Shown here: piece after piece, positions 32,324 through 50,965 of the stretch | Numbering within the stretch: position 1 is the stretch's first letter | Layout: every line of letters starts with the position of its first letter | NCBI GenBank assembly: GCA_002709235.1 | Contig: PAQI01000005.1 | Location: 126,130-190,129 of the forward strand | DNA from: Hirschia sp. | Lineage (GTDB): Bacteria > Pseudomonadota > Alphaproteobacteria > Caulobacterales > Hyphomonadaceae | Direction of reading: 5' to 3' | DNA length: 64,000 nt | The notes under the pieces: model-generated | The model's database searches: none | Told to the model about the DNA's origin: nothing | What the model saw: the letters and a program-made list of their open reading frames with translations, nothing else | Program-made: the position numbers and the translations under genes

Positions 32324-32944
32324 CTATTGGCTGGCCCATAATATGCGCGCGATCCAGTCTATCTGGGCGCGGGGTACTTCCAGCGGGGCATAGGCGGGAT
32401 TGGTGGAGATCAGTTCCACCCTATCGGCTGTCATCCGGCCCAGTTCCTTGGCCAGCACCTCGCCGCCATGCAGGCGCGCGACAATACGGTCGCCCCGGCG
32501 ATATTCCGCGCCCGGTTGCACGATCACACGGTCACCTGCGCGAAAGACGGGCTCCATGCTGTCGCCGGTGATCTCGATGGCATAGACGATTTCGTCGCCA
32601 AGGCCGGGAAAGTTGATCTTTTCCCAGTCGGGGCCATCCGGTCTGCCCTGCACATCGAAATAGCCACCCTGACCGGCGCGGGCGAGACCGACCAGCGGAA
32701 TGGCGCGTCCGGGGCGGCCCAAAGCCAGATCGACGAACTCGTCCCAGTCGGTGCCCACCGCATCCAGCGCGCGCGAGAGGCTTTCGGTCGACGGCCAGCG
32801 CAGGCGTGAGCCATCCGCGCTGGTCCGCTTGGACTTGTTGAAGGCCGTCGCATCCAGCCCGGCCAGCCGGGCCAGCCCGGACGGCGTCAGGTCATGACGC
32901 CGCGCCAGCGCGTCAATGCCCTTCCAGAGATCCTTATGGCGCAT
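32324..32944 (-). CDS. S24/LexA-like self-cleaving repressor
   Basis: 206 residues. An N-terminal helix-turn-helix (residues 5-60, with LTPSGLARLAGLDATAFN) is followed by a peptidase S24 domain. The Ala-Gly cleavage site is at residues 90-91 (LARAGQ), the catalytic Ser129 is in GDSMEP and Lys166 in EVLAKELG. Such proteins repress target promoters until RecA-stimulated self-cleavage after DNA damage. It is not canonical LexA, whose HTH differs; it resembles phage cI-type regulators domesticated in alphaproteobacteria. It converges on the gene ending at 32320 with only three bases between stops. Confidence 0.9.
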   Translation of the reverse strand: MRHKDLWKGIDALARRHDLTPSGLARLAGLDATAFNKSKRTSADGSRLRWPSTESLSRALDAVGTDWDEFVDLALGRPGRAIPLVGLARAGQGGYFDVQGRPDGPDWEKINFPGLGDEIVYAIEITGDSMEPVFRAGDRVIVQPGAEYRRGDRIVARLHGGEVLAKELGRMTADRVELISTNPAYAPLEVPRAQIDWIARILWASQ

Positions 32945-33233: not shown

Positions 33234-33363
33234 ACCTTCGAACCGTTTACGCCGCCAGCATCTGCTGCGTGGATCCCGATTTTCAGTGGGATCGGCTGTA
33301 AGGCAGAAGAAGGCGGTTGAGAGATGCGCCAAGTCGCGCATAGTGGGGGGATGGGAGATCCAG

Positions 33364-34368
33364 ATGCGCATTTCGGTTTTCAGCACCAAGCCCTATGACA
33401 GGCAATTCCTGACAGATGCCAATGGCGGGGCGGGGCATGAATTGACCTTTCTGGAGCCGCGATTGTCGGTGGAGACCGCGCCGCTGGCGGCGGGAGCGGA
33501 TGCGGTGTGTGTGTTCGTAAATGATGTGGTGGACAGGCCTGTGCTGGAGAAATTGGGCCAGCAGGGCGTGAGACTGGTGGCGCTGCGCTGTGCGGGGTTC
33601 AACAATGTGGATCTGGCGGCGGCGCGTGATCTTGGGATTTCGGTGTGCAGGGTTCCGGCCTATTCGCCGCATTCGGTGGCCGAACACACGCTGGCGCTTA
33701 TCCTGTCGCTGAACCGCAATATCCACCGGGCCTATAACCGGGTGCGCGAGGGTAATTTCGCGCTGGATGGCCTGTTGGGTTTTGACCTTCATGGCAAGAC
33801 GGTCGGCGTGGTCGGCACCGGCAAGATCGGCGCAACAGTGCTGGAGATCCTGAAGGGCTTTGGCTGTGTGCTGAAGGCCTATGATGTGGCCCCTGATCCA
33901 GACTGCGTGGCCATGGGGGTGGCGTATGTGTCGCTGGAGGAGGTGTTTGCCGTCAGCGATGTCGTGACGCTGCATTGCCCGCTGACGCCTGACACGCATC
34001 ACATGGTGGATGAGGCCCTGCTGGCACGGGCGCGGACGGGGCTGATGCTGATCAATACGGGCCGGGGCGCACTGATCGATACGCGCGCGGTGATCGGGGC
34101 GCTGAAAAGCGGCCATCTGGGGAGCCTGGGCATTGATGTCTATGAGGAAGAGGCTGAGCTGTTCTTCGAGGACCTTTCCAATTTCGTGTTGCGCGATGAT
34201 CTGTTTGCGCGGCTTTTGACCTTTCCCAATGTGCTGATTACCGGCCATCAGGCATTTTTCACGCGCGAGGCGCTGTCTGGCATTGCCGAAACCATGATCG
34301 CCAATGTGACAGCATTCCAGGACAGTGGCGCGCCCCTGCATCCGGTTTCGGTAGAGCGACTGGCGTGA
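33364..34368 (+). CDS. D-2-hydroxyacid dehydrogenase, D-lactate dehydrogenase-like
   Basis: 334 residues. NAD-binding motif GxGxxG is in [13 protein letters not shown] near residue 153. The catalytic Arg is in [11 protein letters not shown], a Glu is in DVYEEE, and the catalytic His is in ITGHQAFFT near the C-terminus. The conserved [11 protein letters not shown] and YSPHSVAEH sequences and the long C-terminal [11 protein letters not shown] section match fermentative D-lactate dehydrogenases (LdhA). It probably reduces pyruvate to D-lactate. Start chosen at the ATG preceded by GGGAG; the frame is open upstream. Confidence 0.88.
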
Positions 34369-34439: not shown

Positions 34440-35528
34440 ATGGGCATGGCCAAGATTTTCATCAGCTATCGGCGGTCTGACAGCCAGCATGCGGTTGACC
34501 GGCTCTATGAGGGGCTGAGCAAGCGCATGCCAAAGCGTGATATCTTCATTGATGTCGACAATATCCCCAAGGGCGTTGATTTTGTTGACCATCTGTCCTC
34601 GAAAGTGGCCGAGTGCGAGACCTTGCTGGCGATCATCGGGCCGCAATGGCTGACGGCTACGGATGAGACCGGCGAACGCAGGCTGGATGATCCGGGTGAT
34701 TTTGTGCGCATCGAGCTGGCAGCGGCGCTGAAGCGCGGCATTCCGGTGGTACCGGTGCTGCTGGATGGTACACCAATGCCCACAGCGCGTGATCTGCCGG
34801 CGGATTTGCAGGGGCTGGAGCGGCGCAATGCCGCCCATTTGCGCCGCGATACATTCCGGGCGGATGTGGAGCAATTGGTGAATGACCTGCGGCCTGCGGG
34901 TGGTGGATCGTCAAACATTGCGGGCAAGCTGGTCATGGGAGTTTGCGCGATCGCGATTGCGGCGGGAATTGGCTGGTATGCAATGACGCGCGTTTCCTCT
35001 GTTGAAGTGCCGGATATTGCTTTGCAGGATGAAGCGGCATCTTCGATGGGCGGCGAGGCGGACACAGGTTCCGGGACTGAGGCCGCGCCGACACCGACAT
35101 CCACGCCGACAACTGACCCCACGCCGACATCAAGGCCACAGGCGGTGGAGACGCCCAAGGTGCAGCCTGCCGCTGCGAGCGGGCCGCAATGGCAGACGAC
35201 ATCAAGCGGTCTGAAATATCGGGCGATGCGCGAGGGCGCAGGCGCGCATCCGACCATGCAGGACAAGGTGGTCACGCATTATGTCGGCAAATTGCTGGAC
35301 GGGACGGTGTTTGACAGTTCGCGCGCACGCGGTGAGCCGATTGAATTCAAGCTCAACCAGGTCATCCCCGGATGGGGTGAGGGGCTGCAATTGATGCGGC
35401 CGGGCGGGCTTTATGAATTCGTGATCCCGCCAGAGCTGGGCTATGGCGAGCGCGGGGCCGGAACTGTCATCCCGCCCAATTCACCGCTGTTCTTCGAGGT
35501 TGAGCTGATTGCGGTCAATCCGGGCTGA
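34440..35528 (+). CDS. TIR domain-transmembrane-FKBP fusion protein
   Basis: 362 residues. Residues 1-150 are a TIR_2-type domain: [36 protein letters not shown] and [21 protein letters not shown]; Glu92 in FVRIE is a candidate catalytic residue of NAD-cleaving TIRs. A single membrane helix spans about 161-181, followed by a Thr/Pro-rich linker (190-250). Residues 255-360 are a complete FKBP prolyl isomerase ([34 protein letters not shown]). Predicted topology: TIR in cytoplasm, FKBP outside. The second ATG (34446) is an equal start choice. Confidence 0.9.
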
Positions 35529-35570: not shown

Positions 35571-37769
35571 TTACCAGATGCGGATGCGTTTTTCCGGCGG
35601 CAGGTAGAGCGGGTCGTCCTCGGTGATGTTGAAGGCTTCATACCATTCATCAAAGTTGCGAACGACGCCGTTCACGCGATAGTCCGCCGGTGAGTGCGGG
35701 TCGGTGTTGAGCTGGCGGCGCAGATATTCCTCGCGCGCCTTGTTGCGCCAGACCTGGGCCCAGCTGAGGAAGAAGCGCTGATCGCCGGTCAGACCGTCAA
35801 TCACTGGGGCTTCCTCGCCATTGAGCGACATCTTGTAGGCGCGATAGGCCATTGAGAGGCCGCCCACATCGCCAATATTCTCGCCGAGGGTCAGCGCGCC
35901 ATTGACGCAGGTTTCGCCATCATCCAGCGGGCAGAAGCCGTTATACTGGGCAACGAGCGCTTCGGTCTTGGCCTTGAAATTGGCTTCGTCCTCGGGCGTC
36001 CACCAGTTGCGCAGCACGCCATCGCCATCGGATTTGGCACCCTGGTCGTCAAAGCCGTGGCCCATCTCGTGGCCGATCACTCCGCCAATGGCACCATAGT
36101 TCACGGCCGGGTCAGCGGAGATGTTGAAGAAGGGTGGTTGCAGGATGGCGGCGGGGAACACGATCTCGTTGCGGTTGGGCGAGTAATAGGCGTTCACCGT
36201 CTGGGGCAGCATGAACCATTCGGTCTTGTCGATGGGCTGGCCGAGCTGGGAGATCATGTCGTCCCAGGCCCATTGATTGGCCGCCAGCTGGTTGGCCAGC
36301 GCGCCTTCATCCTGTGAAATGACGAGATCATCATAGGTCTCGAATTTTTCCGTGTAGCCGATCTTGGGCGTGAACTTGGCGAGCTTGTCGCGGGCCTCGA
36401 CCTTGGTGGCTTCGCCCATCCAGTCGATCTCGTCGAGATTGGCGGCCATGGCCTTGCGCAGGTTTTCCACCAGCTCATCCATGGCGGCCTTGTTTTCCGG
36501 CGGGAAATATTCAGCCGCATAGACCTTGCCGACACCTTCGCCGAGTGAGCCTTCAACTGCGGAAACGGCACGCTTCCAGCGCTCGCGCTGTTCTTCCTGT
36601 CCGTAGAGTGTCTTGCCGAAGAAATCGAAATTGGCTTCGTCAATATTGGCTGGCAGCACATCGGCATGGTCTGACAACAGGTTGACCGTCAGCCACGCCT
36701 TCCAGACATCAATGTCATAGGTGTTGGCCAGCTCGATCAGGCGGAACACGCCGCCGCCGGAAACCAGATCCACCTGTTCGGCGTCCAGTCCGTTTTCCGC
36801 GATCTCATCGGCTGTGGGCGTGACCTGGCGCACGATGAAGGCGTTCTGCTCACCCAGACCCATATTGTCGAGCATCTGCTGGACGGGGAAGGTGGTCTTC
36901 TTGACCAGTTGTTCGCGGGTCAGCTTGTTGTAGGTCAGGTTGCGGTTACGGCCTGCGGCGCGGTCCCAATGAGCCTTCGCCATTTCCTTTTCGAGGCCAT
37001 AGACGCGACCGGCCATGGCGTCTGCATCCTCAATCCCGGCCTCATTGAGCATGAAGGTGAGGAATGTGAGATATTTGCCGCGAATATCGAGGTTCTTGTC
37101 GGTATCCTTGAGGTAATAATCGCGGTCACCCAGGCCCAGACCGCTCTGGTTGATGTAGAAGATATAGGTGTCGGGGGCCTTGGAATCGACATCCACCCAG
37201 CCTGCGAAGGGCGAGTTGTAACCCACGGATGAGAACAGCTCGGCCAGGTCCTCGCGGGTTTCGACCGCTGCGATCTTGTCCAGCATGGGCTGGATCTGGG
37301 CCAGGCCCGCTGCTTCGATGGCAGCTTCATCCATATAGGCGTTGTAATAGGCCGCGATCTTGCCTTCCAGCGTGTCAGGTGCGGGGGATTTGGCGGCGAG
37401 GTCGGCAATGATGTTGCGCACGCGCTGTTCGGACATTTCCGCCAGCATGGTGAACGCTCCATAGCGCGAGCGGTCAGCCGGGATCTCGAATGTGTCCAGC
37501 CATTTGCCGTTGACGTGTTTGAAGAAGTCCTCACCCGGCGCGACCGTGTCATCCATGGAGGCCAGGTCGAGGCCGTATTCACCAAAATCCGAGGACATTG
37601 TCGTGACGATCTCGCGCGAGACCGTGTCGGCTTTCATCGGATCGACAATGGGTGTGTCGGCAGAGGAAGCGGGCACCTCCAGCTCGGCATCTTCAGCGGC
37701 TATTTCCGGTGCGGTCGCACAAGCGGCAACCAGCGCGAACAAGGATGTGGCGGCGATGAGTTTTTTCAT
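35571..37769 (-). CDS. M13 family (neprilysin-like) zinc metallopeptidase lipoprotein
   Basis: 732 residues, full length for M13. Signal peptide with lipobox ALVAAC (Cys17) anchors it outside the cytoplasm. Zinc motif HEMGH is in IGHEMGHGFDDQG; the third zinc ligand is Glu in GENIGDVGG; the substrate-binding NAYYSP segment and the C-terminal RVNGVVRNFDEW of the family are all visible. It cleaves oligopeptides. It converges on the TIR-FKBP gene with 42 bases between stops. Confidence 0.95.
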   Translation of the reverse strand: MKKLIAATSLFALVAACATAPEIAAEDAELEVPASSADTPIVDPMKADTVSREIVTTMSSDFGEYGLDLASMDDTVAPGEDFFKHVNGKWLDTFEIPADRSRYGAFTMLAEMSEQRVRNIIADLAAKSPAPDTLEGKIAAYYNAYMDEAAIEAAGLAQIQPMLDKIAAVETREDLAELFSSVGYNSPFAGWVDVDSKAPDTYIFYINQSGLGLGDRDYYLKDTDKNLDIRGKYLTFLTFMLNEAGIEDADAMAGRVYGLEKEMAKAHWDRAAGRNRNLTYNKLTREQLVKKTTFPVQQMLDNMGLGEQNAFIVRQVTPTADEIAENGLDAEQVDLVSGGGVFRLIELANTYDIDVWKAWLTVNLLSDHADVLPANIDEANFDFFGKTLYGQEEQRERWKRAVSAVEGSLGEGVGKVYAAEYFPPENKAAMDELVENLRKAMAANLDEIDWMGEATKVEARDKLAKFTPKIGYTEKFETYDDLVISQDEGALANQLAANQWAWDDMISQLGQPIDKTEWFMLPQTVNAYYSPNRNEIVFPAAILQPPFFNISADPAVNYGAIGGVIGHEMGHGFDDQGAKSDGDGVLRNWWTPEDEANFKAKTEALVAQYNGFCPLDDGETCVNGALTLGENIGDVGGLSMAYRAYKMSLNGEEAPVIDGLTGDQRFFLSWAQVWRNKAREEYLRRQLNTDPHSPADYRVNGVVRNFDEWYEAFNITEDDPLYLPPEKRIRIW

Positions 37770-49006: not shown

Positions 49007-50812
49007 TTAAATGAAGCGCTCGGATACTACCCCCACAACGGCTCCGGAAATCGAAGCGAGCATCACGGCCAGCAGCTTCTGGTCAACGTCGCCGGTCGCG
49101 CTCCAGAAATCGCCAAGTTCAAGCGGGGTGTTTGTCAGTAATGCCAAGCCTGAAAAAATCGCACTTGCATTCGTGCATATGAGTAGGCTGACTGCTGCGC
49201 CGATAATGGCAGCGCCCAGATATGTGAAGATGAGGTCACGACGATCTGGATAATGATAGTGAACGATTAGACCTGCCATGCTGGCGGCTGATATAATCAA
49301 GGCAATCAACATTGAATAATCGAGCCAAGTCACATCTCCGCCACTGATGAGTGGCGGAGCAGTTGCCGTTTTGGATGCGATCATCAGGCACAATATAGGA
49401 GGCAGTAGTAGCCATCGGTTCCATTCCCAATCATTGGCGTAGTCCAGAATAAATGCTGTAACAACAAAGGCAGTAAATAGGGACGCGGGCCCAATCGTTG
49501 TTGCGGACAAATCCTCATTGAAGGGAGTGTTCATCATCCAGCCAGCCATCAGGAGACCAGCAGCAATTCCGGACAATATACTGATCGTCCTGGGAGGCTC
49601 ATCATAGGCTCCATGGAAGAAATATGCGCCGAGCAGTGCGGCCGGTATGACCAGGACGAGGTAACCCAAGTTAGAAGACACGAGCTGTATCGCTGGTAGG
49701 CCAAATATAATCAGTACGAGCAAGCCTGTCAGACTCGTCGTGATGATCGACAAGGACTTTTTGTTGATCAGAAATTCGTGCAACGGTTTTGGGGGCTTGC
49801 TGTCGAACACATTGGAGGTGCGTCGTCGCGAAGATCTTGCTGCAGCAATTTGTGATTGTATTGAATTGTCTTTTGTCAGAACCGTTGGTGTAAACTGAGT
49901 GCCGCTATCAGCAGCTGCAGCCTCTCCCGCAGCAAAAAGCTCATCCAGAGAAGCACTCCTGTCCGAACTTGCAGGGGAAAATTTGTGGAGCTGGGCTTTC
50001 ATGATTTTGAGCGTTTTGTCTTTTGATTTGATGAGATCTTCTGCGCTTTTGAGCTGTTCCTCCTGGGCTGTGCGGGCCTTTTCGGATTCCAGAAGCTTGC
50101 CTGTCAGGTCTTCTATCTTTTGAACGGTGGTTTTTAAAATCGCTTTCGTATTGGCAATCTCATCTGTTTTTTCATGTAGTTGCTGTTTCAGGGTGTCGAT
50201 CTGTTCTGCCATGTCTTCAGCGCGTGTGTTGGAAACGGCCAGTTCCCTTAATGCGTCTGCCTGCTGACGTGCTTCCACTTTCAATTGTTCGTTCAGCGCG
50301 CTTGCGCGTTCTTCGGTATCCGTACGCCGTGCGCGTTCAGCTATGAGTGTGGCATTCACCGATGCCATGCGTCGTCTGATCCATGCGGGTGCGTGAGGGG
50401 CAACAAGCTCCTCGATACGGTCAATGAAGCGCCGCCATCGGGCATCAGATGTATCACCTACCCAGTCTGTCAGATCTTCAGCCTGAAGTGAGCCGAACTC
50501 GACAGGAACAGCATCTGCATCCAATAGGATAGGTAGTAATTTTGCGCCAGCTTCGCGATGCTCAGTCTGGACATAGGACAGATTGGAATTTGTGCTTCTG
50601 GTGAAGATTCCATCCTGAACAGAGACATTCGACCAGCAACCAACAACACAGTGTGCCTGTCTCAATTGCATTAGAATCTGATCAAACCAGTCTCCGCCGG
50701 TTTCGATTTCATAGTCGAACCAGACATCAAACCCTTCAGATTTGAGGGCGGATGCCAGAGTATCAATTCTTCCTCGGTCTTCCTTTTTATAAGAAAGGAA
50801 AATATCAGCCAA
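49007..50812 (-). CDS. TIR domain-coiled coil-polytopic membrane protein
   Basis: 601 residues from TTG 50812. Residues 1-145 are a TIR domain: ADIFLSYKKED, VWFDYEIETGGDWF, CVVGCWSN and YVQTEHREAGAKLLPILLD; the Glu in YVQTE is the candidate catalytic residue. A long charged coiled coil runs about residues 165-290. Six to eight membrane helices fill about 350-601. GGGG lies six bases before the TTG, and TIR proteins usually start at this point; the frame extends to ATG 50893. Visibly AT-richer than its neighbours, suggesting transfer. Divergent from the mutase gene. Confidence 0.85.
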   Translation of the reverse strand: MADIFLSYKKEDRGRIDTLASALKSEGFDVWFDYEIETGGDWFDQILMQLRQAHCVVGCWSNVSVQDGIFTRSTNSNLSYVQTEHREAGAKLLPILLDADAVPVEFGSLQAEDLTDWVGDTSDARWRRFIDRIEELVAPHAPAWIRRRMASVNATLIAERARRTDTEERASALNEQLKVEARQQADALRELAVSNTRAEDMAEQIDTLKQQLHEKTDEIANTKAILKTTVQKIEDLTGKLLESEKARTAQEEQLKSAEDLIKSKDKTLKIMKAQLHKFSPASSDRSASLDELFAAGEAAAADSGTQFTPTVLTKDNSIQSQIAAARSSRRRTSNVFDSKPPKPLHEFLINKKSLSIITTSLTGLLVLIIFGLPAIQLVSSNLGYLVLVIPAALLGAYFFHGAYDEPPRTISILSGIAAGLLMAGWMMNTPFNEDLSATTIGPASLFTAFVVTAFILDYANDWEWNRWLLLPPILCLMIASKTATAPPLISGGDVTWLDYSMLIALIISAASMAGLIVHYHYPDRRDLIFTYLGAAIIGAAVSLLICTNASAIFSGLALLTNTPLELGDFWSATGDVDQKLLAVMLASISGAVVGVVSERFI

Positions 50813-50965
50813 TTTCGTCCCCTGATTTGCCTGTCTGGTTACTATTGAAGACAAAGCGGGATCAATCAACCAGCATATTCTTCCATGCATCATCCGATCA
50901 ATTTCTCTTGCCGAGATGGCATGTCGCTGGCATGTTGCGGTGCAACATAATCAGGGAGAGACCAG

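Follow-up and report, generated by a model that had tools for sequence, protein, structure and literature searches.

A gene of Hirschia sp. that joins a TIR domain, a membrane helix and an FKBP domain in one reading frame

Results and Discussion

We identified a gene that encodes a TIR domain, a single membrane helix and an FKBP domain in one reading frame, within a 64,000-nucleotide stretch of Hirschia sp. DNA (the whole of which is referred to as the window). The gene is real, intact and rare, and its architecture is a singleton in everything that we searched. From its parts, and from those of its relatives, a mechanism in which a periplasmic FKBP controls a cytoplasmic TIR enzyme seems plausible. 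Below we give the evidence for the gene and its domains, followed by its distribution and context and what these suggest of its function.

Domain structure of the gene

The coding sequence lies on the forward strand at 34440..35528 (362 aa, the stop codon being included in the coordinates) and contains no internal stop. Translation more probably starts at the ATG at 34446..34448 (+) than at 34440, because many relatives start with MAKIF or MPKIF and because the upstream sequence ggggagag would then stand at a more usual spacing. A Pfam search of the 362-aa protein at E <= 0.001 returned two domains only, TIR_2 at residues 6-146 (34455..34877, +; E 6.3e-12; 46.5 bits, cut-off 28) and FKBP_C at residues 271-357 (E 3.1e-30; 104.8 bits, cut-off 21.1). 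Hydropathy analysis gave one hydrophobic segment, residues 160-178 (34917..34973, +), of moderate hydrophobicity (peak mean 2.01). This is followed by a disordered linker rich in Thr, Pro and Ala (residues 179-249; 34974..35186, +), and the FKBP domain as a whole, delimited by Pfam, a structure match and its pocket residues, spans residues 250-362 (35187..35525, +).

A first-pass annotation, made from the sequence alone, had described a TIR_2 domain, one membrane span and a complete C-terminal FKBP domain in one frame, and Pfam, hydropathy and the unbroken 362-aa frame bear this out. It had also called for structure prediction of both folds, and AlphaFold models support both. The model of the whole protein (11 sequences) has a mean pLDDT of 74.5 and a pTM of 0.45. 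Both domains are confidently modelled; the helix at residues 161-176 is itself of low confidence, and most of residues 153-246 fall below a pLDDT of 50. Third-position GC in the two domain parts is 0.70 and 0.72, and since the codon-position GC of both resembles that of the other window genes measured, we see no sign of assembly artefact or decay. The occurrence of TIR and FKBP in a single frame is not a chance match, and the anatomy of the protein is well supported.

The TIR domain

A profile of 34 related TIR domains (A1), in which the window TIR groups with its subfamily at 40-68% identity, was searched against all PDB chains. Chains of SARM1 and of C. elegans TIR-1 matched at 1.5e-16 to 2e-13, and the sole other chain below 0.01 was 4c7m, at 0.0089. 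By profile, the bacterial TIR subfamily of A1 is far closer to SARM1 and TIR-1 than to any other solved chain. This contrasts with a 2020 survey which, in the portion of its text available, found no bacterial homologues of SARM1 (PMC7075850), and a tree of the subfamily could bear on a possible bacterial source of SARM1. As the best 50 Foldseek and the best 50 VIA matches of the full model all fell on the FKBP part, the TIR domain was modelled separately (3 sequences, pLDDT 88.9). SARM1 then topped both Foldseek and VIA-align (Z 18.4, rmsd 2.1, 136 aligned residues, 28% identity); among the best 50 VIA-align matches, plant TIRs scored Z 12.6-14.8 and SPARTA 12.7-13.5.

Glu92 (codon 34713..34715, +), named in the first-pass annotation as the candidate catalytic residue, aligns with the Glu of the SARM1 motif DWVHKE, that is with E642. 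It is E in 78 of 79 aligned rows, two of which are the window protein itself, and the remaining row has a gap. D38 and D87 are likewise D in 78 rows and Y10 is Y in 77, the rest being gaps; overall, Y10, R11, R12, D38, G45, D87 and E92 are each kept in 74 to 78 of the 79. Y10, D38 and G45 correspond to Y568, D594 and G601 of SARM1, and F88 replaces W638. In the parts of the SARM1 study available, the printed mutagenesis primer places E642 in WVHKEIV, E642A has the most extreme effect, the examined mutants, including those of Y568, G601 and W638, are reduced, and D594A and G601P are cited as lowering NAD+ hydrolysis (PMC8266388). The Glu pocket, the loss of which was a stated concern of the first-pass annotation, is kept at E92, Y10, D38 and G45, with Phe at the position of W638, and this conservation supports an NADase-type pocket in the TIR half. 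Relatives without an FKBP show the same conservation at these catalytic positions. A Glu at this place is also present, according to the available text of the 2020 survey, in TIRs with no reported activity (PMC7075850).

SARM1 is thus the closest solved TIR both by profile (1.5e-16) and by structure, with four of its residues matched by kept counterparts. Unlike it, the window protein has a membrane helix and an FKBP domain after the TIR, as well as F88 for W638. SARM1 itself also comprises ARM and SAM domains, and its gating is by metabolites.

The FKBP domain

The nearest solved folds of the FKBP part are of the Mip type. LpMIP (8bk6) comes first, with Z 21.9, an rmsd of 0.8 and 113 of 113 residues aligned, and Burkholderia Mip-like proteins and E. 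coli FkpA are also near; identity to the Mip and FkpA structures among the matches listed is 42-54%. Because all 113 residues align over equal ranges, a constant offset of 150 from LpMIP can be used. The positions which we take, from general knowledge of FKBPs, to form the pocket hold Y281, D292, F303, I309, W312, Y335, V343, I344 and F352. The active-site residues, on whose presence in a model the first-pass annotation had made its reading depend, are therefore kept. The window protein shares the FKBP_C fold and this pocket with Mip, FkpA and FklB; it differs in that their N-terminal helical dimerisation domain is replaced by TIR, membrane helix and linker. No FKBP_N domain was found by Pfam at E <= 0.001, and residues 153-246 are mostly below pLDDT 50. 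Among the matches listed, the closest FKBPs of the same taxonomic family belong to genus g7 and consist of a single domain (59-61% identity). On reading their sequences these have no evident signal peptide, so FKBPs of this type are not exclusively periplasmic. Elsewhere in the host genome the query matched one further FKBP, a tandem frame (G000:C24) with at best 42% identity.

The kept pocket would also fit a membrane-anchored periplasmic folding helper, in which the FKBP does the work and the TIR serves just as scaffold or oligomerisation anchor. By our reading of the sequences, loci of Ferrimonas, Vibrio and Photobacterium encode FKBPs that lack a TIR and are anchored by a single hydrophobic segment at the N-terminus, and as the only other FKBP of the genome is the tandem one, Mip-type activity may otherwise be missing. 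However, the conservation of TIR catalytic positions in relatives that lack FKBP points to a TIR function that is independent of FKBP, and we consider a folding helper unlikely. 

Distribution of the TIR-FKBP pairing

We examined 176 loci for both domains, as the first-pass annotation had proposed. TIR matches at E <= 1e-3 comprised 141 frames, pooled into 101 genes wherever frames shared a 25-residue stretch (77 genes at E <= 1e-15); not every weak TIR match listed was fetched into this set. FKBP was matched by 44 frames of the same loci, and the two domains were joined only in two copies of the window gene. None of the other 100 TIR genes had an FKBP, where 7 of the 101 are cut at the locus end in every copy and their C-terminal parts were not fully read.

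A search with the full protein gave some match in 103 of 105 genomes of the same family; among the matches listed, TIR and FKBP pieces were at one place only in the window genome (G000). TIR-only searches found matches in 59 of 398 genomes sampled from the order, 8 of 385 from the class and 6 of 398 from the phylum, three samples that each include the genome of origin. The family of G150 (a match in 34 of 60 genomes) and that of G633 (1 of 2) were searched in the same way, and the TIR-only samples overlap. Two other genomes of the genus, G001 and G002, contain no fusion. G001 has no TIR match at all, and G002 has the TIR-membrane helix half (58% identity over the TIR) with another tail. A peptidoglycan-binding reading of that tail (L054), suggested by eye, was dropped as Pfam did not confirm it at E <= 0.01.

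The fusion was absent from 72,556 plasmid records, of which 97 match (the best 40 of the 97 are single pieces covering <=43% of the protein), and from 50,697 phage records, of which 17 match (the best 15 of the 17 cover <=35%). A fusion would rank first, and the best-ranked matches are single pieces, so no plasmid or phage place combines both halves. Leaving out the linker, the two domains account for ~75% of the protein, and a line at 80% coverage would by itself be an unfair test for a fusion. IMG/VR scans returned 4 relatives of the TIR and none of the fusion. A mobile-element origin was set aside, given that the best-ranked plasmid and phage matches are partial pieces and the IMG/VR relatives TIR only.

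In the open-licence literature, among the matches listed and judged by title and the start of the abstract, we found no TIR-FKBP fusion and hence no earlier description of the architecture under another role. The FKBP named in PMC8195603 refers, in the text available, to GreA/B-C. The first-pass annotation had called the arrangement unfamiliar. This stands for the pairing, which was found nowhere else searched, but not for the layout of TIR, membrane helix and a further part, which is itself common among TIR relatives. The TIR-FKBP pairing is new; modular TIR proteins with varying second parts are already known.

Genomic context

The gene lies in a slot between conserved borders. G001 and G002 keep the order class I lysyl-tRNA synthetase, S24, slot, M13 peptidase and RND genes, with genes in the slot other than those of the window. 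In the window the left border is an S24 peptidase/LexA-like gene (32324..32944, -) and the right border an M13 peptidase gene (35571..37769, -), both assigned by Pfam and synteny. The slot holds the TIR-FKBP gene and a gene for an NAD-binding 2-hydroxyacid dehydrogenase (33286..34368, +; Pfam), which ends 71 bases upstream on the same strand. G002 has a 65% identical copy of the dehydrogenase on a 103 kb contig (L129, G002:C7) that also bears genes for RepA (RPA, 2.2e-72) and for a ParA-type protein. Because the slot content varies and this copy is found beside RepA and ParA-type genes, the dehydrogenase and TIR-FKBP genes appear to be accessory genes, carried as cargo at a variable site. An operon of the two genes was considered, and we claim no such link, as the 20 kb read around the G002 copy contained no TIR match. 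That contig of G002 is plasmid-like overall.

A variable slot, and a fusion seen in one genome only and absent from two others of the genus and from the other TIR genes examined, might reflect a recent neutral domain shuffle, by which a TIR-membrane helix half gained an FKBP cassette and the fusion had no selected function. Against this, neither the frame nor the codon composition nor either active site is impaired and there is no sign of decay, and we think such a shuffle rather improbable.

NAD-cleaving TIRs act in several known defence systems, and a further possibility is that the same periplasm-to-cytoplasm control serves as an abortive anti-phage system, the FKBP sensing phage entry and defence being the specific output. 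A PADLOC ThsB profile gives a partial match (44.4 bits) at residues 5-73. The resemblance to Thoeris ThsB is one of TIR similarity over these residues; unlike ThsB, the window protein scores 45.8 bits against a cut-off of 220 (ThcB4, NF058526), and no ThsA partner was matched by PADLOC at E <= 1e-8 in 6 window genes, the M13 gene lying outside the scan. No PADLOC family of any kind, and so no defence partner, was found in these 6 genes at that threshold.

The neighbours of the relatives were likewise compared with a control. Ten PADLOC families, with one member each, were matched at E <= 1e-8 in 111 neighbouring frames, hand-picked from 145 called frames at 19 relative loci (one neighbour is itself TIR-like). 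As a control we took 13 loci that have no TIR match; 103 of their 138 called frames yielded 5 families and 7 member matches. With no excess of defence families over the control, the idea of a defence island was abandoned. The first-pass annotation had also advised a look for conserved neighbours; the borders of the slot are conserved in G001 and G002, its content is not. Envelope stress or interbacterial attack would fit equally well as triggers, and we judge an anti-phage role in particular to be distinctly improbable.

The TIR subfamily and its modules

Pfam was run on 62 relatives, the window protein included; these are 69 unique frames minus the short or cut L110, L079, L082, L140 and L084, and L083 and L116 (250 and 288 residues). 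TIR_2 was found in 61, and FGE-sulfatase was the commonest partner module (16 of 62), followed by Sel1 (4), WD40 (2) and pYEATS (2). By a crude hydropathy rule, 39 of the 69 relatives have exactly one membrane segment after the TIR, as does the window protein, with none in 24 and several in 6. The subfamily by this count is not uniformly receptor-like. In the 39 one-segment relatives, the same crude rule finds more K/R on the N side in 32, equal numbers in 6 and fewer in 1.

The window protein shares with these relatives its TIR subfamily and, for most, the single segment after it, and differs in its C-terminal module. Since many different domains take the C-terminal place in this subfamily, we regard the FKBP as one interchangeable module rather than as a unique invention. 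According to reviews, in the portions available, bacterial TIRs come in many architectures and some TIR proteins have transmembrane regions (PMC8635717, PMC9153377). FGE-type domains occur with TIR in predicted conflict systems (PMC7159879, PMC8195603, PMC10907252), and FGE-sulfatase is said to share the C-type lectin fold (PMC8195603), again as far as the available text of these papers goes.

Several relatives deserve mention in their own right. L114 (G633:C99) has a TIR, a membrane helix and OpuAC (E 1.6e-26), a glycine-betaine-type substrate-binding domain, and is a possible osmolyte-reading TIR protein. L059 (G089:C6) has OmpA (E 1.1e-11) in the corresponding place and is possibly a cell-wall-bound TIR. 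In L173 (G130:C7:60000-65000), TIR_2 (2.5e-15) is oddly paired with an enzyme of metabolism, pterin carbinolamine dehydratase (6.5e-19), which follows it. Finally, an expanded array at L055 (G026:C2:90000-109900) and L168 contains seven subfamily TIR frames in 20 kb and a weaker one nearby; the second domains by Pfam are Sel1 in three, FGE-sulfatase in one and pYEATS in one, with none in two.

Proposed mechanism

OmpA and OpuAC normally work in the periplasm, and OpuAC binds ligands. Together with the K/R bias of the one-segment relatives, these partners argue for a topology with the TIR inside and the module outside. The window protein's own flanks have one K/R on each side (net 0 vs -1), an ambiguous charge pattern. 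Applied to this member, the family pattern would place the TIR domain in the cytoplasm and the FKBP in the periplasm, with one membrane helix between them. NAD cleavage, coupling and the topology of this member are what we infer.

We propose that the protein is a one-component switch of the inner membrane, whose cytoplasmic TIR NADase would be clustered or released by an event at the FKBP in the periplasm, a proposal to which we give about the same weight as to all other readings together. The FKBP would bind a prolyl-containing periplasmic partner, which might be an envelope protein that has misfolded, a phage or toxin polypeptide entering the cell, or a small ligand. Binding would alter the clustering or tethering of the protein, and clustered TIR domains would form the active NADase and convert NAD+ to ADP-ribose or a cyclic form. 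The cell would then be slowed or killed, or a signal sent. Control by envelope folding state or an FK506-like ligand, as suggested in the first-pass annotation, is likewise hypothetical. PPIase catalysis is perhaps retained merely as a binding pocket. Since the module is exchanged with OpuAC, with FGE of C-type lectin fold and with OmpA, the module seems more likely to be a reading part than an enzyme directed at its own TIR. The pairing is a singleton and so offers no measure of selection on it.

In a last alternative, the hydrophobic segment would be embedded in the membrane or rest on it, the FKBP would not be carried across, and it would restrain TIR self-association from the same side. 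This reading can draw on the moderate hydrophobicity of the segment (peak mean 2.01), on its ambiguous flank charges, on the g7 FKBPs (59-61% identical) without evident signal peptide and on the cotton FKBP-family protein TIRP1, whose binding to a dual-TIR protein, in the available text, inhibits self-association and autoactivity of the latter (PMC10170703). It is very improbable given the family topology (32 of 39 with more K/R on the N side), the OmpA and OpuAC partners, and a cotton case that is in trans and in another kingdom.

Returning to trans-membrane control of the TIR, cotton TIRP1 and its target GhRVD1 resemble the window protein in that an FKBP-family protein acts on TIR self-association. 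They differ in being two separate plant proteins with inhibition via binding, and no fusion or intervening membrane is described in the text available (PMC10170703). On the strength of that account, a link between FKBP and TIR may recur by independent routes (PMC10170703, available text). Animal Toll-like receptors also combine an extracytoplasmic module, a single membrane helix and a cytoplasmic TIR, as the accessible part of the 2020 survey has it (PMC7075850); in the window protein, by contrast, the domain order is reversed and there is no LRR ectodomain, and the likeness is an analogy only. If the proposed switch is true, the protein would offer a small model of how a TIR NADase is controlled across a membrane, to be set beside Toll receptors and beside laboratory chimaeras in which FKBP is used to force TIR domains together. 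More tentatively, and with some doubt on our part, bacteria may possess Toll-receptor-like single-gene envelope sensors built from a SARM1-type TIR NADase, a membrane helix and an exchangeable periplasmic reader. Here the reader would be a complete immunophilin and the protein a natural FKBP-gated NADase, tying periplasmic protein state or a macrolide-like ligand to loss of NAD+ in the cytoplasm.

A second TIR protein is encoded in the window at 49007-50893 (-). It has 628 aa, with TIR_2 at residues 31-152 (E 1.7e-19) followed by an apparent coiled coil and then a multi-span membrane end. Its PADLOC matches are weak only, as is its one plasmid match, and with a GC of 0.494 vs 0.583 for the window the gene is possibly foreign.
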